From the NCBI RefSeq assembly GCF_003439925.1, contig NZ_QQRR01000002.1, positions 372,001 through 436,000 of the forward strand: DNA of 64,000 nt. Direction: 5' to 3'. A program made the translations under genes and the position numbers. Positions 1 to 18,646 of the stretch are shown here, piece after piece (the first letter of the stretch is position 1; each line of letters opens with the position of its first letter). Source of the stretch: Haloprofundus halophilus. Its GTDB lineage: Archaea > Halobacteriota > Halobacteria > Halobacteriales > Haloferacaceae. The notes beneath the pieces were generated by a model. That model had not been told where the DNA came from and searched no databases. It saw nothing but the letters and a program-made list of their open reading frames with translations.

Positions 1-1112
1 CGGAGTTGGCGACCGTCCGCCGCCGCATCCGCGACGGCCGACTCCGCGACTACGTCGAGGGACAAGCCCGTCACGACGTCTGGCTCACGGCGGCGTTCCG
101 CGAGTTCGACCAGCAGTACGGCTACCTGGAGGAGCGAACGCCGGTCATCCGGGACTCGGAGCTCACGGCCGCGACCGAAGATTCGCTGCGCCGCGTCGAG
201 ATTCAGCGCTTCGCCGAGCGGGTGACGACCCGCTACCGAAACCGGTTCGACACTCCCCTGGTGCTCGTGCCGTGTTCGGCCCGAAAACCGTACAGCGAGT
301 CGCAGAGCCACGGCCAGTACCACGACGCCGTCCAGTTCCGCGCCCACCAGGTGTCGATGACCTCGCCCATCGGCGTCGTCCCGCAGGAACTCGAACTCAC
401 CTACCCCGCCCAGCACTACGACTCCGTCGTGACCGGCCGGTGGTCCGAGGACGAAAAGGAGTTCGTCACCGAGGTGCTGCGGCGCTACCTCCAGCGCAAC
501 GAGTACCCGCGCGTCGTCGCGCACGTCCCGCCGGAGGGCTACCGCGACATCGTCGAACGCGTCGAGAGGGAGGTCGAGATGCCGTTCGAGTACACCGTCG
601 AAGACCACCCGACGACGACGGAGTCGCTGGCGAATCTGGCGTCGACGCTGTCGAACGAACCCAAGTATCGAAAACGAGAGCGCGAGCACAACACCGTGAA
701 AGCCATCGCCGACTACCAGTTCGGCGACGGCGCGGGCGACGCCCTGTTCGCGGACGCCGACATCAAGATGACGAGTCGCTACCCCAAACTGCAGGTCCGC
801 GACGGCGACGGCGAGCAGTTGGCGACGATGGTGCCGCAGTACGGCGTGCTCTCCTTCACGCTCGCCGGGGCGCGACTGTGGGACGCCTCCGACGCACCGA
901 CGAAACGTATCGAGATAGACCGTTTCGTTCCGCACGGCAGCGTGCTCGCTCCCGGCGTCGTCGACGCCGACGAGGAGATCCGTCCCGGCGACGAGGTGGT
1001 CGTCGAGGGGCCGAAGGCGTTCGCCGTCGCCAGAGCGGAGATGTCGGGGCCGGAGATGGCCGAATCGACGCGCGGCGTCGCCGCCGAGGTGCGACACGTC
1101 GACGAGAAGTGA
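1..1112 (+). CDS. arcS: Archaeosine synthase ArcS, C-terminal part (truncated by window start)
   Basis: The reading frame is open from the first bases, so the true start lies upstream of the window. The visible ~370 residues contain the CSARKPYS motif (about residue 90) typical of the archaeosine synthase/TGT-like core. A C-terminal PUA RNA-binding domain follows (about residues 260-360, with a GSVLAPGV-type turn). In the family, ArcS adds lysine to preQ0 at position 15 of tRNA and works with the radical SAM protein RaSEA, which is also encoded here at 27598. A TTG at 6 could be read as a start, but it would cut the protein mid-domain. Confidence 0.9.
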   Translation, partial: ELATVRRRIRDGRLRDYVEGQARHDVWLTAAFREFDQQYGYLEERTPVIRDSELTAATEDSLRRVEIQRFAERVTTRYRNRFDTPLVLVPCSARKPYSESQSHGQYHDAVQFRAHQVSMTSPIGVVPQELELTYPAQHYDSVVTGRWSEDEKEFVTEVLRRYLQRNEYPRVVAHVPPEGYRDIVERVEREVEMPFEYTVEDHPTTTESLANLASTLSNEPKYRKREREHNTVKAIADYQFGDGAGDALFADADIKMTSRYPKLQVRDGDGEQLATMVPQYGVLSFTLAGARLWDASDAPTKRIEIDRFVPHGSVLAPGVVDADEEIRPGDEVVVEGPKAFAVARAEMSGPEMAESTRGVAAEVRHVDEK

Positions 1113-2634: not shown

Positions 2635-3381
2635 ATGCACCTCGCAGACGCACTCGCTGCACGCGAGAGGATGACCTGCGTCGCCGGCGCGGGCGGCAAG
2701 AAGACGACGATGTACGCGCTGGCCTCGCGCCTCGACCGGGCCGTCGTCACCGCGTCGGTCCGCATCCCGATTCCGTCGCTCGAAGAGAATGTAGAGACGG
2801 TCGTCGTCACCGACGACCCCATCGGTGCGCTCGGAGAAACGACAGCCGACGACTTTCCGCTCGGCCTCGTTCCCGGGAAGGCCGACGAGGTGCGGTATCA
2901 CGGCTACGAGAACGAACTGCTCGATAGTCTCGCCGCAGCGCACGACGGGCCAGTCGTCGTCAAAGCCGACGGCGCGCGGATGCGCGATTTCAAGGCCCCG
3001 AGCGACAGGGAACCGCAGATTCCGAAGACGACCGACACGGTTCTGCCCATCGCCAGCGCGCACGTCGTCGGCGAACCGCTGGACGAGAATCTGGTCCACC
3101 GACCCGAGCGAGTAGCCGAAATCGCCGGAATCGGCACCGGAGACACGATTACGACGGAGACGGTCGCGGCCGTCCTCGCCAGCGACGACGGCGGGTTGAA
3201 GCGCGTTCCCGAGGGAGCGACGGCGATTCCGGTCGTGAACAAAGTCGACGACGCGGAACTTGCGGACGTAGGCCGCGACATCGCCTCGAAGGTGCTGGAG
3301 CGCGCGGGTGACCGCGTAGAGCGTGTGGTGCTCGCGCGGATGAACCGGGAGGATGCGGTAGTCAACGTGGTGGAACGCTGA
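2635..3381 (+). CDS. yqeC: YqeC-family selenium/molybdenum cofactor protein
   Basis: A 248-aa protein with an N-terminal nucleotide-binding loop (AGAGGKKTTM, about residues 18-27). The YqeC-type core follows, with VVVKADGARMRDFK about 110 residues in and VVNKVDD near residue 200. YqeC proteins are associated with maturation of selenium-dependent molybdenum hydroxylases, although the exact reaction is not settled. It sits beside mobA in a convergent pair and 0.8 kb before an AOR-like gene, so the context is molybdenum/tungsten enzyme maturation. Confidence 0.88.
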   Translation: MHLADALAARERMTCVAGAGGKKTTMYALASRLDRAVVTASVRIPIPSLEENVETVVVTDDPIGALGETTADDFPLGLVPGKADEVRYHGYENELLDSLAAAHDGPVVVKADGARMRDFKAPSDREPQIPKTTDTVLPIASAHVVGEPLDENLVHRPERVAEIAGIGTGDTITTETVAAVLASDDGGLKRVPEGATAIPVVNKVDDAELADVGRDIASKVLERAGDRVERVVLARMNREDAVVNVVER

Positions 3382-3394
3382 CTGCGTTTTGGCC

Positions 3395-4006
3395 CTACGA
3401 CAACTCCGCGGCCGCCTCTTCGAACTCCTCGCGCGTGTTCAGGTTCTCGAACGTCCGCAACTCCCCGTGTTCCGCAATCTCGGTCTCGTCGACGACGACG
3501 TAGTCCAGCTCGAACAGCGGGTCGACGACCTTCCGCGCGCCCGCTTCGAGCGCCGCCTCGCAGGCATCGGCCATCGCGGTCGCTCGGTAGACGGCGTGCG
3601 TCGTCTGGAACCACTGGTCGTCTAACTGCGGTACAGCGGCGTCGTGACCCTCGGCGCGCTCGAACAGGTACGAGACGACGCCGGGGTCGACGAACGGCAT
3701 GTCGCAGGCGACGACGACGGCGTACTCGCCCGAGGCGGCGCGGAGGCCGGTTCGAATCCCCGACACCGGCCCCTGGTCGGGCGTCTCGTCCTCGGCGACG
3801 GAGACCGGACGCGGGTAGCTCTCGAACGCGTCGAGAATCGCCGCGCGCTGGTCGGCGCGGCAGTTGACGACGAGTTCGTCGACGACGCCCGCCAGTCGGT
3901 CGCCGACGCGGCGAATCATCGGCGTTCCGGCGAGGTCGGCGGTCGCTTTGTCGGCGTCGCCGAAGCGGGTCGACCGGCCGCCGGCGACGATGACTCCCGT
4001 GCGCAT
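3395..4006 (-). CDS. mobA: Molybdenum cofactor guanylyltransferase MobA
   Basis: A 203-aa nucleotidyltransferase that transfers GMP from GTP to molybdopterin, giving the MGD cofactor used by enzymes such as the formate dehydrogenase at 13252. The N-terminal signature VIVAGGRSTRFGDADKA is the GTP-binding loop, and ACDMPF near residue 100 is the metal-binding motif. I start it at the ATG at 4006 because MRTGVIVAGG is the family N-terminus. The frame extends 39 residues further upstream, but that part is arginine-rich and overlaps the opposing promoter. It converges with yqeC across 13 bases. Confidence 0.92.
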   Translation of the reverse strand: MRTGVIVAGGRSTRFGDADKATADLAGTPMIRRVGDRLAGVVDELVVNCRADQRAAILDAFESYPRPVSVAEDETPDQGPVSGIRTGLRAASGEYAVVVACDMPFVDPGVVSYLFERAEGHDAAVPQLDDQWFQTTHAVYRATAMADACEAALEAGARKVVDPLFELDYVVVDETEIAEHGELRTFENLNTREEFEEAAAELS

Positions 4007-4134: not shown

Positions 4135-6006
4135 ATGGCGACGCCCACGCGCGACGCGGTGCTGCGGGTGGACCTCTCGGCGGAGACCGTCGAGAGAGCG
4201 CGCGTCCCCGACGAGTGGCGACGCGGCTACCTCGGCGGGAAGGGGTTGGGCGCGCGTTACCTCTACGCGGAGCTCGCACCCGGCGTCGACCCGCTCGGTC
4301 CCGACAACCTCCTCTCGTTCGTGCTCGGCCCGCTATCGGGGTATCTCCCGGGTGAGACGCGCTACGCGGCGGTGACGAAGTCGCCGCTCACCGGCGGTTT
4401 TCTCGACTCCTACAGCGGCGGGTCGTTCCCCGAACGCCTCGCCGGGTCGCTCGACGACTGTCTCGGAGTCCTGGTCACCGGACGCGCCAGTCGGCCGGTG
4501 GCGCTCGTCGTCGACGGCGGCACGGCGACGATAGAACCCGCCGACGACTTGTGGGGCTGCGACACCGTCGAGACGGACGCGGCGTTTCCCGACGCCGCCG
4601 TCGCGTGCATCGGGCCGGCCGGCGAGTCCGAAGTCGCCTACGCGACCATCGCCTCCGACGGCGGCGACCACCACGCCGGACGCGGCGGCGCGGGCGCGGT
4701 GATGGGGTCGAAGCGACTGAAGGCCGTCGTCGCCCGCGGCGACGCGCCCGAGATACCGCCAGCGCTCGCGGAACTGCGCGACCGGTACGAACGTCGCTAC
4801 GAAGACCACGACACGGGACGCTGGCAGGCCGCGGGCGAGACCTTGGAGAGCGTCGACTTCGCCAACGAGGTCGGCGTCCTCGCCACCGAGGGCTGGCAGC
4901 GCGGCCAGTTCGACGCGGCCGAGAACATCGGCATCGAGGCGGCGCGCGAGGCGGCGGTCGGCCGCGAACGCGACACGGAGACCGCACCCGGCGGCTTCCG
5001 CGTCCGAACCGGAGACGACGAGGGCGAGGGCGAGAGCGTCCCGCGCGGGGCGACGCCGATGACGCTCGGTGCCGGACTCGGCGTCGAGGAGTTCGACGCC
5101 GTCGCGTCGCTCGGCGAGACGTGCGACCGCCTCGGCGTCGACGTCATCAGCGCCGGCAACGCCGTCGCGTGGGCTATCCGCGCCGCCGACGCCGGCCTCG
5201 TCGAGACCGACGCCCGCTTCGGCGACGACGAGGCGGCCCGCCGACTGCTCGACGCAATCGCCGCACGCGACGGCGAACTGGCCGACGCGCTCGCCGAGGG
5301 CGTCGCCGACGCCGCGGCGCGCTACGGCGGCGACGACCTCGTCCCGACGGTCAAGTCGATGGAACTGCCGTCGTACGACCCTCGTGGCGCGATCGGGATG
5401 GCGCTGGCGTATGCGACGAGCGACCGAGGGGCCTGCCACCGCCGAGCCAGACCGGTCGAGCGCGAGGTGTTCGAGGCGTGGGACGACGCCGACGTGGTCG
5501 AGGCCGTCGCGGGCGCACAGACCGTCCGCTCCGTCCTCTGGAGCCTCGTCGCTGACGACTTCGTCGGCGAGACGATGTGGAACGACCTCGGCGCGGCGTG
5601 GCTCGACGCGGTCGGACTACCGCACGACGCCGACGAACTGAGCCGAACCGGCGAACGAATCTGGACGCTCGTCCGCCTGTTCAACGTCCGCGAGGGGTTC
5701 GACCGGAGCGACGACGCGCTCCCGGAGGCGCTTCGCCGACCGCTCTCGGAGGGCCCCGCCGCCGGACGCGCCGTCGACCCCGAGGCGTTCGAGCGACTGC
5801 TCGACGCCTACTACGCCGCCCGCGGGTGGGGCCCCGACGGTCGCCCGACCCGGGCGACGGTCGAGCGACTCGGCCTCGGCGGCATCGTCGACGAGGCGAC
5901 GCCGCTGGCCGAGGAGGCGACGACGACGAACGCGGGGCGCGACACGACGACCGTCGCGGACCGCCGACACGACCGACACGACCGACACGACACAGATGAC
6001 AGATAG
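4135..6006 (+). CDS. AOR-like protein lacking the iron-sulfur ligands
   Basis: A 623-aa member of the tungsten-pterin aldehyde:ferredoxin oxidoreductase fold family. The pterin-binding parts are recognisable: GGKGLGARYLY near the N-terminus, VTKSPLTGGFLDSYSGG, AGRGGAGAVMGSKRLKAVV, CDRLGVDVISAGN and SDRGACHRRA. The C-x2-C-x3-C motif and the later cysteine that hold the [4Fe-4S] cluster are absent, and only five scattered cysteines remain. The ATG at 4135 follows a TTTATT element (4102-4107) at leaderless spacing. It overlaps the next gene by 11 bases. The substrate and electron partner cannot be inferred. Confidence 0.85.
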   Translation: MATPTRDAVLRVDLSAETVERARVPDEWRRGYLGGKGLGARYLYAELAPGVDPLGPDNLLSFVLGPLSGYLPGETRYAAVTKSPLTGGFLDSYSGGSFPERLAGSLDDCLGVLVTGRASRPVALVVDGGTATIEPADDLWGCDTVETDAAFPDAAVACIGPAGESEVAYATIASDGGDHHAGRGGAGAVMGSKRLKAVVARGDAPEIPPALAELRDRYERRYEDHDTGRWQAAGETLESVDFANEVGVLATEGWQRGQFDAAENIGIEAAREAAVGRERDTETAPGGFRVRTGDDEGEGESVPRGATPMTLGAGLGVEEFDAVASLGETCDRLGVDVISAGNAVAWAIRAADAGLVETDARFGDDEAARRLLDAIAARDGELADALAEGVADAAARYGGDDLVPTVKSMELPSYDPRGAIGMALAYATSDRGACHRRARPVEREVFEAWDDADVVEAVAGAQTVRSVLWSLVADDFVGETMWNDLGAAWLDAVGLPHDADELSRTGERIWTLVRLFNVREGFDRSDDALPEALRRPLSEGPAAGRAVDPEAFERLLDAYYAARGWGPDGRPTRATVERLGLGGIVDEATPLAEEATTTNAGRDTTTVADRRHDRHDRHDTDDR

Positions 6007-6853
6007 CATCGACCTCGACGAACTGGACGTATCGACCGACAGCGACGCGGAGCGGCCCAAACGCGGCGACTGGTTCTGGAAGGGCGAAGGCGACCCCGAC
6101 GACGAGACGGGGACCGACGGGTCGGGCGACGACGCGGTCGGGTCGTCGGACGCGGTCGGGTCGTCGGACGCGGTCGGGTCGTCGGACGCGGTCGTGTCGC
6201 CTAATTCGCCCGACTCACTCGACGGCGACGCCACCCTGACGGACTCGGGGGGCGATACCGGGACGGACCACCGCGCGATTCCGCGCGTGCCGCGAACCAA
6301 CGACGACAGTCCGGTCGGCATCCCCATCGAGGGCGGGGGCGCGGGAGGCGCGGCGTCGGGGACCGTCGACGCCGACGACGCGGGCGGCGACGACGGCGAA
6401 GACGGTGAGGACGACGACGTGGAACCGGAGCCGACGGGACCGCACGGGAGCGGACCCTCCGAGATGACGATGGCGCTGACGTACGAAGCCGTGAAACGGC
6501 TGGAGAACCCGGCGGCCGCCTTCGCCGACGCGGAGGGGTGGACCGACTGGGTCGGCATCGTCGGCGACGTAGACGCCCACGTCATCACCAAGTTCCAGCG
6601 CGAGTCGGTCGTCGACGTCGACTTCTTCAACGGCACCGGCACCGGTCCGGCGGAACGACTCGCCGGTATCGACGGCCACTCGATGTTCTTCGCCGAGCGG
6701 ATGGTCGTCGTCGGCGTCGCGGGCGTCGACGAGTACGTCGCCGAGGAGAGCGGGTGGGAGTTCGTCCCGCTGGAGACCGCCGCCGAGAAGGCCGGGTGGC
6801 CGCTCGTCGACCGAGACGGCGACGAACGCGAAGAACGCGACGGGGGGCGGTGA
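5996..6853 (+). CDS. Hypothetical acidic protein with a conserved C-terminal domain
   Basis: The 285 residues form two parts. Residues 1-155 are a disordered Asp/Gly/Ser-rich region that includes a DAVGSS tandem repeat. Residues 158-275 are a compact domain (MTMALTYEAVKRLENPAAAFADAE, then WVGIVGDVDAHVITKFQRE) that I take to be a conserved haloarchaeal family of unknown function. The ATG overlaps the end of the AOR-like gene by 11 bases, so translation is probably coupled and the proteins may act together. Confidence 0.75.
   Translation: MTDSIDLDELDVSTDSDAERPKRGDWFWKGEGDPDDETGTDGSGDDAVGSSDAVGSSDAVGSSDAVVSPNSPDSLDGDATLTDSGGDTGTDHRAIPRVPRTNDDSPVGIPIEGGGAGGAASGTVDADDAGGDDGEDGEDDDVEPEPTGPHGSGPSEMTMALTYEAVKRLENPAAAFADAEGWTDWVGIVGDVDAHVITKFQRESVVDVDFFNGTGTGPAERLAGIDGHSMFFAERMVVVGVAGVDEYVAEESGWEFVPLETAAEKAGWPLVDRDGDEREERDGGR
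6131..6199 (+). repeat. 18-bp tandem repeat inside the coding sequence
   Basis: Three perfect consecutive copies of GACGCGGTCGGGTCGTCG (6131-6184) are followed by a partial fourth copy. They encode DAVGSS repeats in the disordered region of the 5996 gene. The repeat keeps the frame, so copy-number change would only alter linker length. Confidence 0.9.
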
Positions 6854-6988: not shown

Positions 6989-7255
6989 ATGAGCCTCAGA
7001 AACGGTTTCCGCCAGTCGTGGGTGCTCACGTTCGGCATCGTCGCCGCGATGGCGTGGTTGACACTCACCGCGGTACGGGTGTTCTCGCTCGTCGAGTCGC
7101 CGCTCACGTGGGCGACGCCGACCGCCGGGACGGGCGCGATGGGCGGTCTCGTCGGTCTCGTCGTGATGGCCGTCTTCGTCGGCGTCCTGTTAGTGCTGTT
7201 CAGCGAACTCGGCGAGTCCGACCCCGCGCCGAGCACGTGGCCGCCGGAGAAGTGA
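6989..7255 (+). CDS. Small membrane protein, 88 aa
   Basis: It has two hydrophobic segments, at about residues 12-30 and 50-71, with a short polar C-terminus (GESDPAPSTWPPEK). No family is recognised. It is the first gene of a tight three-gene cluster: the stop at 7253-7255 is one base from the start of the zinc-ribbon gene, which in turn overlaps the 7400 gene. Confidence 0.8.
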   Translation: MSLRNGFRQSWVLTFGIVAAMAWLTLTAVRVFSLVESPLTWATPTAGTGAMGGLVGLVVMAVFVGVLLVLFSELGESDPAPSTWPPEK

Positions 7256-7256
7256 G

Positions 7257-7403
7257 ATGACGCAGTTCGAGTGCACCGAGTGCGGTCAACTCGGTCGGTT
7301 CGGCCGCTTCGACGAGTCGACGCTGACGATGCGCTGTCCGGTCTGCGAAAAGCAGACGGCCTGGACCGTCGCGTTCGCCGACGAGGGGGGTGTGTCGTTT
7401 TGA
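7257..7403 (+). CDS. 48-aa zinc-ribbon microprotein (two CxxC)
   Basis: The frame begins MTQFECTECGQLG and carries two zinc knuckles, CTEC (about residues 6-9) and CPVC (about residues 27-30), the pattern of haloarchaeal CPxCG-type small zinc-finger proteins. The ATG is one base after the preceding stop. Its TGA at 7401-7403 lies within a TTGA overlap with the next gene. Such microproteins are often regulators or adaptors, but no specific function can be read from the sequence. Confidence 0.8.
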   Translation: MTQFECTECGQLGRFGRFDESTLTMRCPVCEKQTAWTVAFADEGGVSF

Positions 7404-7738
7404 CGCTCGCCGTCCCGCTCTCGGAGCGGTTCCGCGAGGCGGCCGAGGAGTGGGCCGACACGCGCCTCATGGACCCCGAGGACGCCTGCGAAGTGAAAGC
7501 CGAACAGGCGCTCTTGGAGGTCGAACACCTCGTCTCCGGCGCGCACGAGGTCGAGTTCGCGGTTGAGGACGGCGAACTTCGCTACGAACCCAGCGACGAA
7601 CTGGCGGCGCTGCTCTCGTCGCACGCGGAGCGAACGGGCGTCGACGAGGCGACGGTGCTCGGTCTCCACGTCGACCTGTTCGCCCGCGTCTTCCTGGACG
7701 ACGACGCGAAACGGCCCTCGAACGCCCCGCCGAAGTGA
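7400..7738 (+). CDS. Hypothetical protein, 112 aa, probable TTG start
   Basis: An acidic soluble protein that begins TLAVPLSERFREAAEEW after a TTG start at 7400. The start overlaps the microprotein's stop by 4 bases, the usual coupling geometry in this genome. A longer frame runs upstream to 7271, but it would overlap the zinc-ribbon gene entirely and is arginine-rich, so I reject it. The C-terminal ~60 residues are regular alpha-helical sequence (TGVDEATVLGLHVDLFARVF). The function is unknown. Confidence 0.7.
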   Translation: MTLAVPLSERFREAAEEWADTRLMDPEDACEVKAEQALLEVEHLVSGAHEVEFAVEDGELRYEPSDELAALLSSHAERTGVDEATVLGLHVDLFARVFLDDDAKRPSNAPPK

Positions 7739-8046: not shown

Positions 8047-9282
8047 TCAAAGCAGCGGGAACGAGCGGTCGTTCCGCGCGGGGACGTAGAAGTTCGCCCG
8101 CGAAGTGACGCGGACGAAGTTGAGGATGCCGTTGTGTTCGCGGTCGGTTATCGCCGGACTGTCGTCGCGGACGTACCAGCCGTTCATCGCCTTGCGCGTC
8201 CGCCGGAAGTCGTCGAGTTTCCGCTGGAAGGCGACGAAGTGGACGCCGGGCTTCCCGCCGTCGACGGTGTTGAAGTCGCGCCGGAGCACCAGCGGTTCGT
8301 CGGTGTCGTCGCGGCGGACCTGCGCGACTTTCTCGTGGTGGCCGACGACGTCGTGGTCGCGGGCGTGTTCGCGGACCCGGTCGGAGAACGGGACGTCGTC
8401 GGTGAGGTTCGCCACGTCGTCTTCGGTGAACTCCGGCGAGAACATCCGCTGGATGCGCTCCCGCTCGGTCAACGCGCCGTACCAGTCGCGGAGGTTCACC
8501 GTCAGCCGACTGAGGTGCATCGTCGTCCCGTCGACGAACCGCCCCTCCGGGATGGCGACGCTCTCTTCACTCGGTTGGGTCCGCTTGCGCCCCGAGAAGA
8601 AGCCCATGAACATCTGCTCCTCGCCGGTCAGCGCGTCGCCGGGGACGCCCTCGGCGTCGGCGTGTTCGGCCGGGAGCCCCTCGCCGAGGAAGCCGGTCCG
8701 GCGGCCGCGGACGCGGAACACGTCGCCGAGGCGGTGGTCGACCGGTTCGCCTCCGATTCGGCTCCGGGAACCGAACAGCGCGTTCTCGGCGGCCGCGAGG
8801 TTCGACGGCAGGTCGCTCTCCAAGACGAGCGCGGCGTCGAACGACTGGAGGTTCGGTTCGTCCGTCCGCGACAGCACCTGCGGCGGCGAGACGGGGACGC
8901 GCGAGAGTTCGTCGATACGCTCGAAGTAGTTCGTCCCCCACGCCAGCGCGTGGAACAGTCCCTCGTGGTGCCAGTCGTACGCCGCTTCGAGCGTCCGCAT
9001 CGCACGCTCGACGGTTCGTGCGTCTTCGACCGAGGGGTCTCGACGCAGGTCGAGGAGGAGCACGCGGCGGTACCGAGCCTGCAACTCGTTGCCCGAGTCG
9101 TCGGTCGGGAGGTACTCGCCCTGCGCGAACTGGCGGTCCGGGAGGCGGTCGCTCCGCGGGTTGGCGGCGAGTCCCTCGACGCCGGGGCCGGTCGCCGGGT
9201 CCAACAGACGGCTACACCCCGCGAAGCCGGCGGCTCCTGTCACGACTGCGAGGCGACTGAGCGCAGTGCGTCGGGAGACCAC
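8047..9282 (-). CDS. Tat-exported lipoprotein, possibly DyP-peroxidase-like
   Basis: The protein begins with a twin-arginine signal (VSRRTALSRLAVV) followed by a lipobox ending in FAGC, so it should be exported folded and anchored as a lipoprotein. The mature ~390 residues resemble the haloarchaeal DyP-like Tat lipoprotein group (DUF7405-type, from memory). I cannot confirm the haem-ligand motif of true DyP peroxidases. The GTG at 9282 places the RR motif at the N-terminus, and a TTG at 9315 would add 11 residues. The opposing small-membrane-protein genes begin 130 bases away. Confidence 0.75.
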   Translation of the reverse strand: MVSRRTALSRLAVVTGAAGFAGCSRLLDPATGPGVEGLAANPRSDRLPDRQFAQGEYLPTDDSGNELQARYRRVLLLDLRRDPSVEDARTVERAMRTLEAAYDWHHEGLFHALAWGTNYFERIDELSRVPVSPPQVLSRTDEPNLQSFDAALVLESDLPSNLAAAENALFGSRSRIGGEPVDHRLGDVFRVRGRRTGFLGEGLPAEHADAEGVPGDALTGEEQMFMGFFSGRKRTQPSEESVAIPEGRFVDGTTMHLSRLTVNLRDWYGALTERERIQRMFSPEFTEDDVANLTDDVPFSDRVREHARDHDVVGHHEKVAQVRRDDTDEPLVLRRDFNTVDGGKPGVHFVAFQRKLDDFRRTRKAMNGWYVRDDSPAITDREHNGILNFVRVTSRANFYVPARNDRSFPLL

Positions 9283-10285: not shown

Positions 10286-10915
10286 CTACGAGACCATCTG
10301 CGCGACGAGTTCGTCTTCGAACTCGACGAGACCGTCGAAGACGAGCGCCGCCGCCCGGAACAGCGGTTCCTCCGTCTCGTCGAGCACGTCGTCGACGAAC
10401 GCCTCGTGCCACGCGGACAGATGCTCGTCGAGGAAGACGCGTTCGTAGCCGAACGCCTCCTCGGCCCCGTGGTACTGTCGTTCGACGAGGTAGCGCAGGA
10501 ACGCGAGTTCGACGGCGATGAAGTCGTTCTCCTCGCCGTACTCCTCGGGGGGTTTCCAACCGGCGGCGCCGTAACTGGCTTCGACTCTCGCGAGCCCCTC
10601 GCCGATGAAGTCGGTGTCCGCGCGGTAGTACGTCTCGTGCGCCAGGACGGGCGGACGCGGTCCGACGAACACCCGCGTGTACTCTCGCGCCAGGTCGTCG
10701 CGGACCGCCGCCGGGTCGCGGCCCTCGTTGTCGGCGACGAACTGTCGAAGCAGGTCGAACCCCTCGTCCAACGACTCGTTCACCTCCGCGTCCGGCAGCT
10801 GGAGGCCGTCGCCGAGCAGGTTCGAGAGGAGCGACTCGTCGGGGACGTCCCAGAACACCTCGACGACGAAGTCCAGCAGTTCGAGGCGGGCGTCGTAGAC
10901 GGCGGCGTCGTCCAT
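10286..10915 (-). CDS. TorD/DmsD-family redox-enzyme maturation chaperone
   Basis: A 209-aa all-helical protein of the TorD family. It contains the family-type segment RVFVGPRPPVLAHETYYR (about residues 86-103), a halophile version of the LFxGPxxPxxxPYESxY motif. These cytoplasmic chaperones bind the Tat signal and assist cofactor insertion for molybdenum enzymes. Its ATG overlaps the stop of the HdrA/MvhD-like gene by one base (TGATG), and the Tat-exported formate dehydrogenase catalytic subunit is divergently encoded, which is the likely client. Confidence 0.85.
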   Translation of the reverse strand: MDDAAVYDARLELLDFVVEVFWDVPDESLLSNLLGDGLQLPDAEVNESLDEGFDLLRQFVADNEGRDPAAVRDDLAREYTRVFVGPRPPVLAHETYYRADTDFIGEGLARVEASYGAAGWKPPEEYGEENDFIAVELAFLRYLVERQYHGAEEAFGYERVFLDEHLSAWHEAFVDDVLDETEEPLFRAAALVFDGLVEFEDELVAQMVS

Positions 10916-13041
10916 CACCGGCCACCTCCGTGTTCGAACAGCAGCCCGGCGCGACAGTCCCCGCAGTAGTCGAAGACGCTCGCGTCGGCGTTCGGCGCGA
11001 CGCCTTCGACCACGTCGCCGACTTCGCCTTTCACCTTCTCGATGGAGCCCCGACTGGCGAACGGCTTCCCGCAGCGGACGCACTCGGCCATCTCGCCCTC
11101 GTACACCGTCTCCCAGCGCTCGCCGCCGTTGCGCTCGGGGAGTCGAGAGAGGTCCAACCCCGTCTCGATGGTGATGGCCGTCTCCGGACAGCCCTCCTCG
11201 CAGAGCCCGCAGTTGACGCAGTCCTCGTGGCTGAACTGTAGGTCGCCGTCGGCCGTCCGCCGGATGGCGTCGGTCGGACAGAGCGTCGAACAGGTCGGCG
11301 TGAGGTTGCACGCGTCGCTCACCGCCATCAGTCCGAACGTCTCCAGCCCCCGAATCACGTCCCGGTCGGGGTCGGCGCGGTCGACGATGGCTCGAACGCT
11401 CTCCAGCGCCCAGTCGTGGGTGTTGAACGCCGGGTTCGGCTTGTCGTCGCGGACGACGCCCGTCGCGCGGTGTTCGCCCGCCGGAACCGGCGTCTCCGAG
11501 AGGCCGTCGACGAACCCTTCGACCGCTTCGACGAACGACTCGTGGTCGTCGGGGCCGGGCGCGAAGAACCCGACGCGCTCGCCGAGGCCGAGGTCGGCCG
11601 TCGCGCGGTTCAGCCGCTCGACGAGTTCGGCTTTCGGGTCCGGCCCGGAGTGCAGACAACTGTCCCCGCAGCCGACGATGGCGACGCCGTCGGCCCCCGC
11701 AGCGAGCGCGTGCAGCACGTGCGCTTCGCCGACGGTGTCGGTGCAGTTCACGGAGACGGGCAGGATGGGCGGGTAGGTGAGGTCGGTACCGCTGGCGGCG
11801 CGGCGGCCGTAGGCGCGGAGCGCGTCGGCGGCGCGCTCCGAACAGACGAACGCGATAACCGGCGTCTCGATTCCCTTCTCACCCCGGCTGAACAGCCAAC
11901 CGCCGCCCTGCTCCTCGACGTCGAGAAGGGCTTCGACCTCGCGGGCGAGGCGCTCGTTCGAGGGTTCGCGGAGCATCGTCGCGCCTGTCGGGCAGGCGCT
12001 CGTACACGCGCCGCAGTCCTGACACGCCACCTCGTCGAACTCGACGGAGTCGACGGTCGGTCGCCGGACGGCGTCGTGGGGGCAGGCGTCGGTACAGGCG
12101 GTACAGCCCCGCTGGCTCGACTCGCCCGCGGCGCAGACGTCCAGCTCCAAGTCGAGATACTTCGGTTTCGTGACGCCGCCGAGGAGACTCTCGACGGCCG
12201 CGACGGTTCCGGCGTCGACGGGGCCGGTGTAGAAGCCGAGTCGGCCGCCGCGGGCGACCGAGGGCGAGTCGGGGGAGACCACCTGGTCGGCGTCGATGGT
12301 TCGTTCGACGCCCGAGCGGTCGATGGCGTCGGTCGGACAGCACTCCTCCCACTCGCCGCCGGGAGCCTCGGGGTCGACGTCGACGGGGTAGCGCGTCAGC
12401 ATCCCGCCGGGCCCCTCCTTCACGCACTTCATGCAGGAGACGCAGTCCTCCGTCACCTCCGCTCGGAGCGTCACCTCGAACTCGCCGAACTCGCCCTCGA
12501 CGCCGACGACGCGGCCGCGTTCGACGGTCACGTCCGAGAGGTCGGCGTCGACGCCGTGGAAGTCGCGACCGTCGGCGACGAGCGTCACCTCGGCGGAGTC
12601 TGCGAGCGCGGCGGCCGTCTCGGCGTCGCCGACGACGACGACGGCGTCGCCGGCCTCGCCCGTGACGGTTCGGGTCGCCGCCTCGTGTTCGAGTCCGGCG
12701 CGGCGCGCGTTCAGCAGACGAGCGGTCTTGTCCGTGGCCGCGTCGCGCTCGTGAACCCACCCCGCGCCCGCGCGGTGGTCGACGAACGAGGTGGCCTCCG
12801 GGTGGAGGCCTTTCTCCTCCGCGAGCGCGCGGAAGCGCCGTTGGCAGCCCGAATCCGGGGCGGTGACGAGCAACTGGTCGAGTTCGTACTCGTCGACGAG
12901 TTGCGCCATCGCGGGGAGGCCGTCCTCGCACAGGAGCGTCGAACTGGCGACGACGTCCACGTCGCGGACGCCGTCTCGCGCGCGTTCCAGGTCGATGTCG
13001 CAGGTGTCGCCGCACGAGCAGACGAAAGCGCCGACGTTCAT
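10915..13041 (-). CDS. HdrA-like/MvhD/polyferredoxin fusion protein
   Basis: A 708-aa electron-transfer protein in five parts. Residues 1-120 match the HdrA N-terminal domain (GAFVCSCGDTCDID, cysteine at 38, GC at 65-66, GWVHERD). Residues 128-195 are a short remnant where HdrA carries its FAD domain. Ferredoxin cysteine clusters lie at about 200-235, 303-320 and 340-350. An MvhD-type domain occupies 394-465, with Cys400, 433, 458 and 462. Two more clusters lie at 578-588 and 608-619, then paired CxxC at 654-657 and 693-696. The start is at MNVGAF (13041). The divergent formate dehydrogenase suggests it accepts or relays those electrons. Confidence 0.85.
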   Translation of the reverse strand: MNVGAFVCSCGDTCDIDLERARDGVRDVDVVASSTLLCEDGLPAMAQLVDEYELDQLLVTAPDSGCQRRFRALAEEKGLHPEATSFVDHRAGAGWVHERDAATDKTARLLNARRAGLEHEAATRTVTGEAGDAVVVVGDAETAAALADSAEVTLVADGRDFHGVDADLSDVTVERGRVVGVEGEFGEFEVTLRAEVTEDCVSCMKCVKEGPGGMLTRYPVDVDPEAPGGEWEECCPTDAIDRSGVERTIDADQVVSPDSPSVARGGRLGFYTGPVDAGTVAAVESLLGGVTKPKYLDLELDVCAAGESSQRGCTACTDACPHDAVRRPTVDSVEFDEVACQDCGACTSACPTGATMLREPSNERLAREVEALLDVEEQGGGWLFSRGEKGIETPVIAFVCSERAADALRAYGRRAASGTDLTYPPILPVSVNCTDTVGEAHVLHALAAGADGVAIVGCGDSCLHSGPDPKAELVERLNRATADLGLGERVGFFAPGPDDHESFVEAVEGFVDGLSETPVPAGEHRATGVVRDDKPNPAFNTHDWALESVRAIVDRADPDRDVIRGLETFGLMAVSDACNLTPTCSTLCPTDAIRRTADGDLQFSHEDCVNCGLCEEGCPETAITIETGLDLSRLPERNGGERWETVYEGEMAECVRCGKPFASRGSIEKVKGEVGDVVEGVAPNADASVFDYCGDCRAGLLFEHGGGR

Positions 13042-13251: not shown

Positions 13252-16200
13252 ATGAGCACAGAACCGGTTTCGCTGGACTTGGACAGGCGGTCCTTCCTCA
13301 AGGCGAGCGCGCTCGCGGGTGCCGTCGCTCTCGGCGGGGGCGGTGCCGGACAGGCGCTCGCCCAGAGCGAGGAGGGTGAGACGGACGGCACCGACACGGA
13401 GGGGGAACTGACGAAGACGATCTGCAACTTCTGCGCGGTCGGTTGCGGCTTCCGCGCCGAACGGAAGGGCAACGCGTTCGTCGGACAGGAGCCCTGGCAC
13501 GAGAACCCCATCAACAACGGGTCGCTCTGCTCGAAAGGGGCGGCCATCTACGGGAGCGAACACTCGCCGAAGCGGCTGAAACATCCGCTGAAGAAGGTCG
13601 ACGGCGAGTGGCGGAAGATCTCCTGGTCGCAGGCGTACGACGAGATCGCGAGCGAACTCGAGCGCATCCGCGAAGAGTACGGCCCGGACAGCACGATGTG
13701 GCTCGGCAGCGCGCACCACTCCAACGAGGAGGCGTACGCGTTCCGGAAACTCGCGTCGCTGTACGGGACGAACAACTGCGACCACCAGGCGCGCATCTGC
13801 CACTCGACGACGGTCGCCGGCCTCGCGAACACGTGGGGCTACGGCGCGATGACGAACACTATCAACGACTACCGCAACTTCGACCTCAACATCATCATCG
13901 GGCAGAACCCCGCCGAGGCGCACCCGATTGCGATGCAGCACATCCTCGAAGGCCAGCGTCGCGGCGGCACCATCGCCTCCGTCGACGCGCGCTTCACGAA
14001 GACGTCGGCGCACGCCGACCACTTCTACCGCATCCGCCCGGGGACGGACGTGGCGCTGATGATGGGGCTGATGTACTACCTGCGCGAACAGGACGAACTC
14101 GACCGGGAGATGCTGAACGGACGGGTGAACGGCTGGCCGGACATCGACCGCAACCTCGACCAGTACGACCTCGAAACCGTCGCCGACATCACGTGGATAA
14201 GCGAGGAACAGATACAGGAGTTGGGCGACCTCGTCATCGAGAACAAGCCGAACGTCCAGATAGAGTGGGCGATGGGCGGCACCCAGCACAACAACGGGAC
14301 GCAGAACATCCGGTCGTACGCGCTGGCGAGTCTCGCCTCCGGCAGCGCCGCCCGCAGCGGCGGCGGCCTGCAGGTGATGCGCGGGCACGCGAACGTCCAG
14401 GGGGCGACCGACCTCGCGGTTGCGAGCCACATCCTGCCGGGCTACTACTCGGTGTCGTCGGCCGGGTCGTGGCAGTACTGGGCCGACGTCTGGTCGCAGA
14501 GTCCGTACACGAGCGGCAGTATCAGCTTCCGCGAACTGTACGACCGCTACGACCTGATGCCGAGCGATCAGTACGCCCGACAGGACGAGTACGTCAACTA
14601 CGACAAGTCGTCGAACCCCGACGAATCCAGCGCCGCGGGCCCGAGCGACGACGAAATCGACGACTCGTTCCCGAGCGAGCGCTCGATGATGTTCCAGAAC
14701 GGGCTGACCGTCGCCCGGTGGTTCGACGCCGCGCTCCCGCAGGAACAGCGACTCAACGAGACGCCAATCTACCAGCCGAACCCGGTGAAGGCGGCGTTCT
14801 TCTGGGGCCACTCGGCGAACTCCATCAGCGAGATGGAGCAGATGCGCGACGGGATGGACCTGCTCGACTTGCTGGTCGTCGTCGACGTGTTCCCCTCGCT
14901 GGCGTCGGTGATGGCCGACCGCTCCGACGGCGTCATCATCCTCCCGGCGGCGAGTCAGTACGAACACTACCGTTCGCTGACGAACTCCCACCGGTCGGTG
15001 CAGTGGAGCGACCCGGTTCGCAACCCCTCGCACAACACGAAACCCGACCTGCAGATAATGCAGGAACTCGCCGACCGACTCGGCTTCGGCGACCACTTCG
15101 ACTGGGGAACCGGCCCCGAACTGTACAGCGGCAAAAGCACGTATCAGGACGTGCTCCGGGAGATCAACCTCGGCGTTCGAACCATCGGCTATCAGCAGGA
15201 CCCCGAGCGACTGGAGAGCCAGCGCGAGTACGACTGGGCGTTCAGCACCGAGGACCTGAAGGCGACCCAGGGGCCGCACGAAGGCGAGTTCTGGCAACTC
15301 CCGTGGCCCTGTTGGGGCGAGGGCCACCCCGGCACGCCCATCATCTGGACCGACGACTTAGACCCCAACGAGGGCGGCCACGACTTCCGCGCCCGGTGGG
15401 GGACGACCGCGCCGAACCCGCAGGAGTGGAACGAGATGACGACGCCCTCGCAGGACTACCCGCTCCGAGCGACGTTCGACCAGCAGGGCGAGGAGGGGTT
15501 GAACCTGCTTCGCGACTCGTTCAACCCCGACTGGTGGAACGGGTCGGGGCCGATTCGCGGCGTCCCGCAGTATCCCGGCTTCACGACGACGCTGCCCGAA
15601 GATTTGGAGAACGCCGACGCGCCGAACCTCCCGACGCGGTACGCGCTCGACCCGACGAAGTCGGTGCTCGACGCCGCGCGTGACATGAACGAGCGCTTCG
15701 ACTGGGCGGAGTTCGACCTCGACGACTACCGCCCCTACGACTTCAAACAGCCGGACCCGCCGACGGGTCGGGCGAAGGCTCGCGCGGTCGCGTGGAACTT
15801 CCTCGACCCGATTCCGGTCCACCGCGAACCCATCGAGAGTCCGCGACCGGACCTCGTCGAGCGGTGGCCGGCGAACGGCCAGCAGCGGAACTTCTACCGC
15901 CTCGACCAGGACAACGCGACGGTCCAGGAAGATGCGACGCGGAAAGCCGCCGAGAACGGCTTCGACGTCATCATGACGACGGGACGGCAGGTCGAACACC
16001 AGGGCGGCGGCTCCGAGAGCCGCTCGAACATCTTCCTGGCGGACCTGCAACCGCACATGTACGCCGAGATAACGCCGAACATGGCCGAGGAACTCGGCGT
16101 CGACGGCGGTGACCTGGTCGTCGTCTCGACGACCGACCGCGGATCGATTCTCGTGAAGGCGCGGGTGACGAACCGCCCGAACGACCGCGAGACGTTCCTC

Positions 16201-16497
16201 CCGTTCCACTGGGGCGGCGTCTGGCGCGGCAAGAGCTTAGAGGAGCGCTACCCCGACGGGACGGTACCGTTCGCGCTGGGCGACAGCGTGAACCTCATCA
16301 CGTCGAAGGGGTACGACGTCGAGACGCAGATGCAGGAGACGAAGGCGGCGATGGTGAAGGTGCGGCCGGCGACGCAGGAACTCGTCGACGAACTCAACAT
16401 GGGCGTCGACCTGTCGGCGCTGGAGTTCCCGCAGGACCGCGACAACGTCGGGACGCAGAAGGACTTCGACGTCCGCGACTCGAAAACCGTCCAATGA
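13252..16497 (+). CDS. fdhA: Formate dehydrogenase catalytic subunit (Tat-exported, cysteine form)
   Basis: A 1081-aa molybdopterin oxidoreductase that oxidises formate to CO2 outside the membrane. The Tat signal DRRSFLK is at residues 11-17. The N-terminal [4Fe-4S] ligands are Cys58, Cys61, Cys65 and Cys93. The active-site run ARICHSTTVAG places Cys183 followed by His184 where FdnG-type enzymes have selenocysteine-His. The C-terminal pterin-binding domain (about 940-1060) includes TTGRQVEHQGGGSESR. The ATG at 13252 gives the Tat N-terminus; the upstream frame extension is rejected. It is the first gene of a four-gene operon. Confidence 0.92.
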   Translation: MSTEPVSLDLDRRSFLKASALAGAVALGGGGAGQALAQSEEGETDGTDTEGELTKTICNFCAVGCGFRAERKGNAFVGQEPWHENPINNGSLCSKGAAIYGSEHSPKRLKHPLKKVDGEWRKISWSQAYDEIASELERIREEYGPDSTMWLGSAHHSNEEAYAFRKLASLYGTNNCDHQARICHSTTVAGLANTWGYGAMTNTINDYRNFDLNIIIGQNPAEAHPIAMQHILEGQRRGGTIASVDARFTKTSAHADHFYRIRPGTDVALMMGLMYYLREQDELDREMLNGRVNGWPDIDRNLDQYDLETVADITWISEEQIQELGDLVIENKPNVQIEWAMGGTQHNNGTQNIRSYALASLASGSAARSGGGLQVMRGHANVQGATDLAVASHILPGYYSVSSAGSWQYWADVWSQSPYTSGSISFRELYDRYDLMPSDQYARQDEYVNYDKSSNPDESSAAGPSDDEIDDSFPSERSMMFQNGLTVARWFDAALPQEQRLNETPIYQPNPVKAAFFWGHSANSISEMEQMRDGMDLLDLLVVVDVFPSLASVMADRSDGVIILPAASQYEHYRSLTNSHRSVQWSDPVRNPSHNTKPDLQIMQELADRLGFGDHFDWGTGPELYSGKSTYQDVLREINLGVRTIGYQQDPERLESQREYDWAFSTEDLKATQGPHEGEFWQLPWPCWGEGHPGTPIIWTDDLDPNEGGHDFRARWGTTAPNPQEWNEMTTPSQDYPLRATFDQQGEEGLNLLRDSFNPDWWNGSGPIRGVPQYPGFTTTLPEDLENADAPNLPTRYALDPTKSVLDAARDMNERFDWAEFDLDDYRPYDFKQPDPPTGRAKARAVAWNFLDPIPVHREPIESPRPDLVERWPANGQQRNFYRLDQDNATVQEDATRKAAENGFDVIMTTGRQVEHQGGGSESRSNIFLADLQPHMYAEITPNMAEELGVDGGDLVVVSTTDRGSILVKARVTNRPNDRETFLPFHWGGVWRGKSLEERYPDGTVPFALGDSVNLITSKGYDVETQMQETKAAMVKVRPATQELVDELNMGVDLSALEFPQDRDNVGTQKDFDVRDSKTVQ

Positions 16498-16506
16498 GGT
16501 GATACG

Positions 16507-17175
16507 ATGGCCACAAACAACACGAACGAAACGAAGATGTCACAGGGTGTCATGAGCGTCGGCGAGGACGCGCGAATCTTCCCCGACGTGGAGGCGTGTA
16601 TCGACTGCGGCGGCTGCGTCGTCGCCTGTAAACGGACGTGGGACGTCCCGCGGGACGAACAGCGAATCAGCATCTCGACGATGCTCGAAGGCGAGGAGGC
16701 GGCGGCGGGACTCAACGCCCACAGCGCGAAGGCGCTCAGGCAGGGCCAGAACCCCGGCGAGACGAGCGTGCCGATGCAGTGTTACCACTGCGAGAACGCA
16801 CCGTGCGTCTCGGTCTGCCCGACCGACTCGCTGTTCAAGAAGGAGAACGGGTTCGTCGAGGTCCGCGACGACCTCTGCGTCGGCTGTCAGTACTGCCTGT
16901 CGGCGTGTCCGTTCGGCGCGCCGCAGTTCCCCGACGCCGACGAGGGCGCGGCGAAACTGTTCGGCACCGGCGGCACGATGGACAAGTGTACGATGTGCGA
17001 GGAACGCCAGGACGTCGGCAAGGGTCCGGCCTGCGCCGAGGAGTGCGCCACCGACGCGCTCCTCGTCGGCACCGCCGGTCAGATAGCCGAGGAACTCGAC
17101 AAGCGCGGTAGCGCGTCGTTCTTCAACTCGGAGGCGATGGAGATCATCTTCGGCGAAGACGCGGAGGCGTTCTGA
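16507..17175 (+). CDS. fdhB: Formate dehydrogenase iron-sulfur subunit
   Basis: A 222-aa ferredoxin-like subunit with four cysteine clusters: CIDCGGCVVAC, CYHCENAPCVSVC, CVGCQYCLSAC and CTMC with later CAEEC. This is the DmsB/FdnH-type layout that passes electrons from the catalytic subunit to the membrane cytochrome. It lacks its own Tat signal, so it is presumably exported with fdhA. It starts 9 bases after fdhA, and its stop overlaps the next ATG (TGATG). Confidence 0.92.
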   Translation: MATNNTNETKMSQGVMSVGEDARIFPDVEACIDCGGCVVACKRTWDVPRDEQRISISTMLEGEEAAAGLNAHSAKALRQGQNPGETSVPMQCYHCENAPCVSVCPTDSLFKKENGFVEVRDDLCVGCQYCLSACPFGAPQFPDADEGAAKLFGTGGTMDKCTMCEERQDVGKGPACAEECATDALLVGTAGQIAEELDKRGSASFFNSEAMEIIFGEDAEAF

Positions 17176-17636
17176 TGAGCCGCTCGCTGCCGGAGACGCG
17201 CGACTACAGCGGGCTGGCCATCGCCGTCAACGCCCTCGTCGCGATCGCGGTCACCGCCGTCGTCGTCTGGTGGGCGTCGGGGTTCGCGTACAACGCCGAG
17301 ACGCTGTTCCGCGTGGCTCCGACCGTCGAAGCCGGCGGTATCGGCGCCGACTGGCGCGCCGGGAACACGATTCCGGCGCTCGACTTCCTCATCGCGTTCA
17401 TCCACGCCGCCGACGTGTTGATGGGACTCGGCATCCTCGTCATGTTGTTCGTCCACTGGGGCGCGTTCCGCCGCCTCGCCTCGCGGATGCGACAACCCGG
17501 CGAGACGGCGCGCTACGACTCGGACGCGGACGCCGTCGCCGACGGTGGTCGGACGGCGGCCGACGCGACCGCGGCCGCCGACGGGTCCGTCGACACCGAT
17601 GGTTCCCCCGGTGACCGAGGGGGTGACGGCCGATGA
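17175..17636 (+). CDS. Extra membrane protein of the formate dehydrogenase operon
   Basis: The 153-aa protein has two hydrophobic segments, at about residues 13-35 and 70-92, and a disordered Asp/Ala/Gly-rich tail from about residue 112. It lies between the iron-sulfur and cytochrome genes with overlapping starts and stops on both sides, so it belongs to the operon. No counterpart is present in the classical three-subunit enzyme. It may be an additional membrane anchor or assembly factor; the family is not recognised. Confidence 0.8.
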   Translation: MSRSLPETRDYSGLAIAVNALVAIAVTAVVVWWASGFAYNAETLFRVAPTVEAGGIGADWRAGNTIPALDFLIAFIHAADVLMGLGILVMLFVHWGAFRRLASRMRQPGETARYDSDADAVADGGRTAADATAAADGSVDTDGSPGDRGGDGR

Positions 17637-18646
17637 CGAACTTGGACCACGGGAAGTTCACCCGGATGACGACGACGTTCCACACGCTCTTGGCGCTGGA
17701 CGTGTTCATCCTGTTCTTCTCGGGCTACGGCCTGATGTTCAACGACGAACTCTGGTGGCTCGTCACGCTGATGGGCGGTAGCACCGGCGTGACGGCGGTC
17801 CACCGCATCGCGGGACTGGCCCTCGTCGCGCTCATCGTCTTCTGGGTGCTGATGATGCTGACGACGAGCACCGGCCGCGGCAACTTCCGCGAGATTCTGA
17901 TGGGTCCCGACGACGTCGCGGCGGCGATTCAGGACTTCAAGTTCGTCCTCGGGATGGCCGACGAGCGCCACCCGAACGCCCGGCAGTTCGCGGGCTACAA
18001 GTCCGACGACGTGCCGCTACTGTCGTACATCGGCAAGGGCGTCATCTACATCTTCTCCATCGAACTGACGCTGCTCACCATCTCCGGACTGCTCATCTGG
18101 AGCAAGACCGGCGTGATGCAGTACTTCGCCACGAAGACGGCGGCGATGGCGTTCGTCGTCTTCCACGGCCTGCTCGGCGTCATCATGCTGATGGGCGTGA
18201 TGTTCCACATCTTCGAGCACGGTTTCCACCCGGCGTTCTACCCGGTGGAGGTGAAGGCGTTCATCCCCCGGAAGCTGATTCCGGAGGAGCACGCCGACAC
18301 CGACCACGACTCGACGGGTATCAGCCAACTCACCCTCGCGCCGTCGTGGGGGTGGGCGACGAACGTCATGGGCGTACTCACCGTCATCGGTATCGTCAGC
18401 GTGCTCGTCGGGAGCATCTTCGACGAGGGCTACCCCGTGCCGCGCGAACTCGTCGTCGGCGGGGGTCCGACGGACCTGCTCTTGACCGTCGGCATCAACG
18501 TCGGCATCCTCGTGCTGTTCATCGGCATGGCGCTGCAGATGTACGGCAACCTGCTTCGCGTCCGCTGGCAGAAGCAGCTGGAGCAGGAGGCGCGCGCGAC
18601 GGCGACGACGGACGGTGGACAGGTGAATCAGCCGAACGACGACTAG
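17633..18646 (+). CDS. Formate dehydrogenase cytochrome b subunit
   Basis: A 337-aa membrane protein of the FdnI/FdoI type that carries two b haems and passes electrons to the quinone pool. The histidines are in the expected places: His17 and His57 in the first two helices, and His178 and His192 or His196 in a later helix pair (VVFHGLLG, MFHIFEHGFH). The C-terminal part has two further membrane segments (about 240-262 and 280-302), making it longer than the bacterial subunit. The ATG overlaps the preceding stop (ATGA). Confidence 0.88.
   Translation: MTNLDHGKFTRMTTTFHTLLALDVFILFFSGYGLMFNDELWWLVTLMGGSTGVTAVHRIAGLALVALIVFWVLMMLTTSTGRGNFREILMGPDDVAAAIQDFKFVLGMADERHPNARQFAGYKSDDVPLLSYIGKGVIYIFSIELTLLTISGLLIWSKTGVMQYFATKTAAMAFVVFHGLLGVIMLMGVMFHIFEHGFHPAFYPVEVKAFIPRKLIPEEHADTDHDSTGISQLTLAPSWGWATNVMGVLTVIGIVSVLVGSIFDEGYPVPRELVVGGGPTDLLLTVGINVGILVLFIGMALQMYGNLLRVRWQKQLEQEARATATTDGGQVNQPNDD

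Follow-up and report, generated by a model that had tools for sequence, protein, structure and literature searches.

What a protein of the aldehyde ferredoxin oxidoreductase (AOR) type may do once it has lost the ligands of its [4Fe-4S] cluster is the question raised by the gene at positions 4135-6006 of the window, the whole stretch of 64,000 nucleotides from Haloprofundus halophilus analysed here. The reading that we prefer, and to which we give an even chance, is that its product is a redox-dead, cofactor-holding accessory protein for the maturation of formate dehydrogenase (FDH), acting together with YqeC and MobA.

The AOR fold and its altered cofactor site

The product, P0001, matched the profiles AFOR_N (213.6 bits) and AFOR_C (306.4 bits) over nearly its full length; these were its only two matches at E ≤ 0.001, and no homology to the FdhD family (PF02634) was found. 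The AlphaFold model, predicted with 40 aligned sequences as input (pLDDT 91.4, pTM 0.91), was aligned with the AOR of Pyrococcus furiosus (PfAOR, 1aor) with Z 48.6 and rmsd 2.0 over 572 residues, and was superposed on the FOR of the same organism with Z 50.0. The AOR/WOR fold, already recognized in the original prediction, was thus recovered, with both domains, from the Pfam matches and from the predicted model. The complete AOR of the window used there for comparison (24940-26871) does contain CHSCPVAC together with the later Cys, is closely related to WOR83 from H. volcanii (PDB 9q1t), and lies on the minus strand.

The features of the gene are given below. Residue positions Arg76, Thr243, Cys288/291/295/494, Glu313, Tyr427, His448 and 489 follow PfAOR numbering.

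4135..6006, plus strand: cysteine-less AOR-fold protein P0001, 623 aa (translation, Pfam match, alignment, tree, predicted model)
4975..4998, plus strand: loop in place of the AOR C-x2-C-x3-C motif, codons 281-288 with Thr281, Ala284 and Phe288 (PfAOR alignment)
5050..5052, plus strand: Ala306 where PfAOR has Glu313 (Glu kept in 0 of 92 orthologues)
5125..5142, plus strand: first DxxGxD pterin motif, kept, Asp331-Asp336 (alignment)
5437..5439, plus strand: His435, equivalent to PfAOR His448 (invariant in 92 of 92 orthologues)
5539..5556, plus strand: Trp469-Asp474, rewritten second pterin/cluster motif (Asp489 to Trp and Cys494 to Asp, each in 92 of 92)

The loss of cysteines was checked residue by residue in 92 aligned orthologues, some of which represent one genome held in two collections. 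Cys288, Cys291, Cys295 and Cys494 of PfAOR align with Thr281, Ala284, Phe288 and Asp474 in P0001, and the predicted loss of all cluster ligands extends to the whole set, with the four [4Fe-4S] ligands present in 0/92 orthologues. Position 494 is Asp, position 295 Phe or Tyr and position 489 Trp in all 92; at positions 288 and 291 Cys was not among the common residues of these orthologues, and row-by-row inspection revealed Cys at none of the four ligand positions in any clade member. The aromatic residue at 489 is independent of cysteine loss, as Trp, Phe or Tyr stands there in several cysteine-bearing relatives. A replacement cluster with four other cysteines was rejected, since good conservation is limited to three Cys columns (158 in 88/92, 330 in 92/92 and 434 in 92/92), two of them also Cys in PfAOR, and the lowest total is three Cys per sequence; the objection foreseen in the original prediction, that alternative cysteines might form a cluster site, thereby falls. 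Apparent cysteine loss in other lineages (L131 and L138) was likewise dismissed as an alignment artefact, the raw sequences containing CFSCGIAC.

The pterin pocket, predicted to have been kept, has been kept in part. Retained are Thr243 and His448 (both 92/92), Arg76 (89/92), Tyr427 (88/92) and, with few variants across the clade, the first DxxGxD motif; lost are Glu313, replaced by Ala, Gly or Ser in 92/92 orthologues, and the second DxxGLC motif. Members of the AOR/WOR family have two DxxGL(D/C) pterin motifs, of which P0001 keeps the first and has the second replaced, a change that could mean that the bis-pterin cofactor is not bound. Arg277, Arg304 and Asp474 appear in the alignment as invariant new residues around the old cluster positions. 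In passages of a 2026 survey of the family, Thr243, Glu313, Tyr427 and His448 are listed as conserved active-site residues and the large subunit is described with a [4Fe-4S] cluster, and these passages do not mention a cluster-free clade (PMC13328260). Three residues of this active-site set are kept and Glu313 is the one lost. With the four cysteines and Glu313 gone, the usual electron route through the cluster is lost and aldehyde oxidation becomes unlikely; to judge from the sequence, P0001 probably no longer oxidizes aldehydes. Since cluster ligands and Glu313 are missing clade-wide, the gene should not be annotated as “aldehyde ferredoxin oxidoreductase”.

A single clade and its gene neighbourhood

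A tree of 63 AOR proteins separated its 31 cysteine-less rows, all haloarchaeal, from the rest by a branch with SH-aLRT 100, and their sister group comprised cysteine-bearing haloarchaeal proteins and one protein from a Bipolaricaulota genome. A single loss is probable, since the four cysteines are all present in the nearest relatives. Among the best 80 of 586 confirmed stretches, members with at least about 50% identity were found in haloarchaea only, and two clade members (L123 and L126) had an apparent frame shift. The dN/dS ratios were 0.21, 0.18 and 0.15 for three near orthologue pairs and 0.31 and 0.38 for two farther pairs. A degenerating copy was therefore rejected on the grounds of one clade and purifying selection; the conserved cysteine-less clade that the original prediction had proposed to look for exists, and the scattered set of decaying copies that it had feared does not fit a single clade.

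The genes surrounding P0001 in the window are as follows.

2635..3381, plus strand: YqeC, TIGR03172 165.6 bits, SelD-independent branch (profile search, YqeC tree)
3395..4006, minus strand: MobA-like nucleotidyltransferase (profile match; start from in-house gene call)
5996..6853, plus strand: DUF7124 protein, its start overlapping the stop of the AOR-like gene (family match, predicted model)
6989..7255, plus strand: small conserved neighbour (cluster present at 18/65 clade loci)
7400..7738, plus strand: small conserved neighbour (cluster present at 20/65 clade loci)
10286..10915, minus strand: NarJ/TorD-type chaperone of Mo enzyme (profile match)
10915..13041, minus strand: HdrA-like polyferredoxin (profile match)
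13252..16497, plus strand: formate dehydrogenase alpha-like catalytic subunit with Cys-His pair (TIGR01591 440 bits, below the model cut-off of 666)
16507..17175, plus strand: 4Fe-4S protein of the FDH gene cluster (profile match)
17633..18646, plus strand: cytochrome b561-type membrane protein of the FDH gene cluster (profile match)

The mobA and yqeC genes had been correctly placed nearby; missing there was the FDH gene cluster, located downstream of the AOR-like gene at a distance of about 4 to 13 kb. The window also encodes a DUF7405 protein with a weak match to Dyp-type peroxidases (8047-9243, minus strand; conserved in 13/65 loci) and a protein with DUF5591, TGT_C2 and PUA domains (3-1112, plus strand), which we take to be the domain set of archaeosine tRNA modification.

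For the comparison of loci in-house gene calls were used, which are crude and lacking for a few loci (L051, L201). By these calls the 65 clade loci contained an FDH-alpha relative in 33, YqeC in 30, DUF7124 in 27 and MobA in 21 cases. When loci of at least 12 kb were considered, at least one of FDH, YqeC and MobA was found in 48/60 clade loci (FDH 34, YqeC 30, MobA 21), against 0/6 sister loci, 2/11 loci of other haloarchaeal AORs and 0/17 loci of non-haloarchaeal AORs. The two linked control loci, L063 (G112) and L067 (G155), encode an AOR of another kind, with its cysteines, close to FDH and accompanied by NarJ-like and polyferredoxin genes, to which L067 adds MobA. Among the 12 unlinked clade loci, L076, L085, L089, L094 and L126 have genes for the NarJ-like protein and the polyferredoxin, which in the window adjoin FdhA. 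YqeC varies between lineages in its order and direction, and some loci combine the AOR-like gene and FDH with a NuoF-like or polyferredoxin gene. One protein family lacking a Pfam match (about 190 aa; L181:7417-7989, minus strand), near MobA and FDH in many loci, is perhaps a divergent FDH chaperone.

The coupling to the gene at 5996 had also been predicted. The overlap is real, amounting to 11 nt in the window and 4-14 nt in 20 of 27 same-strand pairs; a general partnership with the clade was not supported, the gene being near in only 27/65 loci, and a fixed pair was rejected because DUF7124 occurs in 193/195 genomes with or without the AOR-like gene. Two or more copies of DUF7124 were found in 64/96 genomes carrying the AOR-like gene versus 19/99 others. 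The product has a long, acidic N-terminal part of low confidence, with a conserved GDWFW-like stretch in the copy beside the AOR-like gene, and a folded C-terminal domain (about 157-270); its model had no match in the PDB at E ≤ 0.001, and our literature search retrieved no paper naming DUF7124.

By gene linkage alone, a maturase, a subunit and a pathway enzyme would look alike. That P0001 is still an enzyme, a W/Mo-pterin protein catalysing a non-redox reaction, or a redox reaction direct to a partner, on a one-carbon compound up- or downstream of FDH, would agree with its location beside FDH with NuoF-like or polyferredoxin genes and with the retention of Thr243, Tyr427 and His448, three of the four residues named in the survey passages (PMC13328260). 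We nevertheless consider it somewhat unlikely, as Glu313 of the same set is lost in 92/92 orthologues, the cluster route is gone, and the link to the cofactor genes YqeC and MobA is at least as tight as that to FDH.

Co-occurrence with YqeC and formate dehydrogenases

Among 195 Halobacteriales genomes, 96 carriers of the AOR-like gene were read by eye from the search table (orthologue rows, split rows included), with G155 and G071, which have only the cysteine-bearing sister, excluded. YqeC (TIGR03172) was found in 117/195 genomes and in 95/96 carriers, the one carrier without it being G133, whose genome is 77% complete. SelD was found in 17/195 genomes, in all of which YqeC lies within 5 kb of it, and is absent from 81/96 carriers, so that the genomic mark of the selenium cofactor of selenium-dependent molybdenum hydroxylases (SDMH), SelD in the genome, is mostly missing. 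In the YqeC tree the SelD-linked proteins form a separate branch (6 rows, SH-aLRT 100), and their genes accompany genes for XO-family hydroxylases and XdhC-like proteins; the selenium-dependent hydroxylase clusters at L205-L212 combine SelD, YqeC, an XdhC-like protein and an XO-family subunit. Two genomes in which YqeC occurs solely in the SelD-linked form were left out of the co-occurrence table, which gave SelD-independent YqeC as present/absent in 95/1 carriers and 20/79 non-carriers (p 3e-34). The association was repeated inside 14 mixed genera (42/43 carriers versus 12/39 non-carriers), and relatedness therefore does not explain it.

A match to FDH-alpha (TIGR01591, E ≤ 1e-90) was present in 94/96 carriers versus 57/99 other genomes, and the two carriers without it have genomes 70% and 62% complete; above the model cut-off, FDH was found in 130/195 genomes. 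Counted without four weaker matches (G012, G039, G155, G185), the FDHs most closely related to the one in the window occur in 50 genomes, 48 of which are carriers.

It is also conceivable that the AOR-like protein serves AORs that have their cysteines, or other Mo/W enzymes, and that it is linked to FDH only because gene islands are shared. In each of the 15 carrier genomes checked 2-5 AFOR_N genes were found, and hence at least one further AOR-type gene, and mobile islands could produce the nested presence. Other AOR loci show little such linkage (the 2/11 and 0/6 above) and arrangements differ more widely between lineages than one island would suggest, and we hold this explanation to be very improbable.

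The FDH-alpha tree comprised 83 proteins, a thinned set with about half of the FDH rows from clade loci, and included 22 FDHs hand-picked from genomes without YqeC (two of its rows, L178 and L247, are the same place in one genome). One clade of 26 rows (SH-aLRT 100) contained 21 of these 22; the rest were from G005 and G046 (the only YqeC of both being of the selenium type), G123 (two rows, one place) and the carrier G147. Of the other 57 rows 56 came from YqeC-positive genomes, L234 (G165) being the exception, and three kinds could be recognized among them: the polyferredoxin-linked kind of the window, one of about 1,090 aa often adjoining a NuoF-like gene, and one of about 710 aa. The Cys-His pair was present in 82/82 rows with the site filled. 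Genomes that have neither YqeC nor FdhD nor the cluster-free AOR supply most of a haloarchaeal FDH clade represented by the loci L216-L235, L254 and L255.

P0001 might alternatively be a metal-free protein that either senses the supply of cofactor or belongs to an FDH complex as a non-catalytic subunit, structural or regulatory. Its proximity to FDH in several operon types, the rewritten second pterin motif and the invariant Arg277, Arg304 and Asp474 would suit such a role. That three separate FDH kinds accompany the protein is more like a shared helper, however, and the invariant pterin-side residues would be needless in a structural role; we regard the idea as improbable.

A putative accessory role and its relation to known systems

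The preferred reading, an accessory protein for FDH maturation, builds on the predicted fold, the loss of the ligands and of Glu313, the single clade under purifying selection, the co-occurrence with YqeC and FDH, the gene linkage and the absence of FdhD. The old AOR pocket would hold a tungsten- or molybdenum-pterin cofactor, which the protein, with selenium-independent YqeC and MobA, would then pass to apo-FDH; cofactor binding, hand-over and the order of these steps are the parts that we infer. A holder of the cofactor is suggested because the pterin-side residues are kept and because the gene is inherited and placed with YqeC, MobA and FDH. Because the gene tracks these three, of the options offered by the original prediction (holding or delivering the metal cofactor, using another partner, or catalysing a non-redox reaction), the first fits best.

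FdhD (PF02634) was detected in 0/195 haloarchaeal genomes at E ≤ 1e-15, the control search being positive in 8/14 named genomes, archaea included. Part of a report on Methylorubrum states that deletion of fdhD abolished FDH activity and metal content (PMC13197769). The more specific proposal that FDH matures here without FdhD, with the cluster-stripped AOR as cofactor carrier and selenium-independent YqeC supplying or placing the terminal sulfur (or selenium) ligand on the metal, we consider unlikely. Against it, and against the general reading, stand the 20/99 non-carrier genomes with SelD-independent YqeC, with 12 of 20 such YqeC loci near an FDH relative, so that YqeC and FDH can manage without the AOR-like protein. 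The FDH clade found mostly in genomes without YqeC or the AOR-like gene seemingly needs neither, and the lack of FdhD is in itself no reason to require the AOR-like protein.

In a literature search of titles and abstract openings, with most subscription papers and bioRxiv outside its scope, no description of a cluster-free AOR clade or of a link between YqeC and FDH was found. What is new here is that an AOR-like protein tracks selenium-independent YqeC and three FDH kinds, often with MobA. If the preferred reading is true, the fold of an old redox enzyme now serves to handle cofactors, YqeC, so far tied to selenium, gains a second, testable setting, and the first candidates for the completion of haloarchaeal FDH without FdhD are at hand.

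Compared with the AOR/WOR family (PfAOR 1aor, FOR 1b25, 9mqx), P0001 shares the whole fold (Z 48.6-50.0), both Pfam domains, Arg76, Thr243, Tyr427, His448 and the first DxxGxD motif, and differs in the absent [4Fe-4S] ligands and Glu313 and in a W-x4-D where the second DxxGLC motif stood. The cysteine-bearing sister group (L058-L062, L128, L129, L154), about 42-45% identical to P0001, resembles it in Tyr93 and in His-His at 182-183; in contrast to P0001 it keeps all four cysteines and Glu313, and YqeC, MobA and FDH were found in 0/6 of its loci of at least 12 kb (L154 apart). FdhD, a sulfurtransferase and cofactor chaperone of FDH, is similar in the proposed role, the handling of the bis-pterin cofactor of FDH, but belongs to another Pfam family and was found in none of the 195 haloarchaeal genomes. 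The YqeC/YqeB/SelD system of selenium-dependent molybdenum hydroxylases was noted with YqeC in Haloarcula marismortui by Haft and Self, in the part of their paper considered here (PMC2276186). Deletion of yqeC in C. difficile gave no clear phenotype according to passages of one study (PMC11448449), and a survey suggests, in one of its passages, that YqeC may also act in processes unrelated to selenium (PMC5029168). That system shares with the window a YqeC of the same family adjoining Mo-cofactor genes; its SelD-linked YqeC has its own branch and XO-family enzymes, whereas the YqeC branch of the window has no SelD nearby and is accompanied by FDH.
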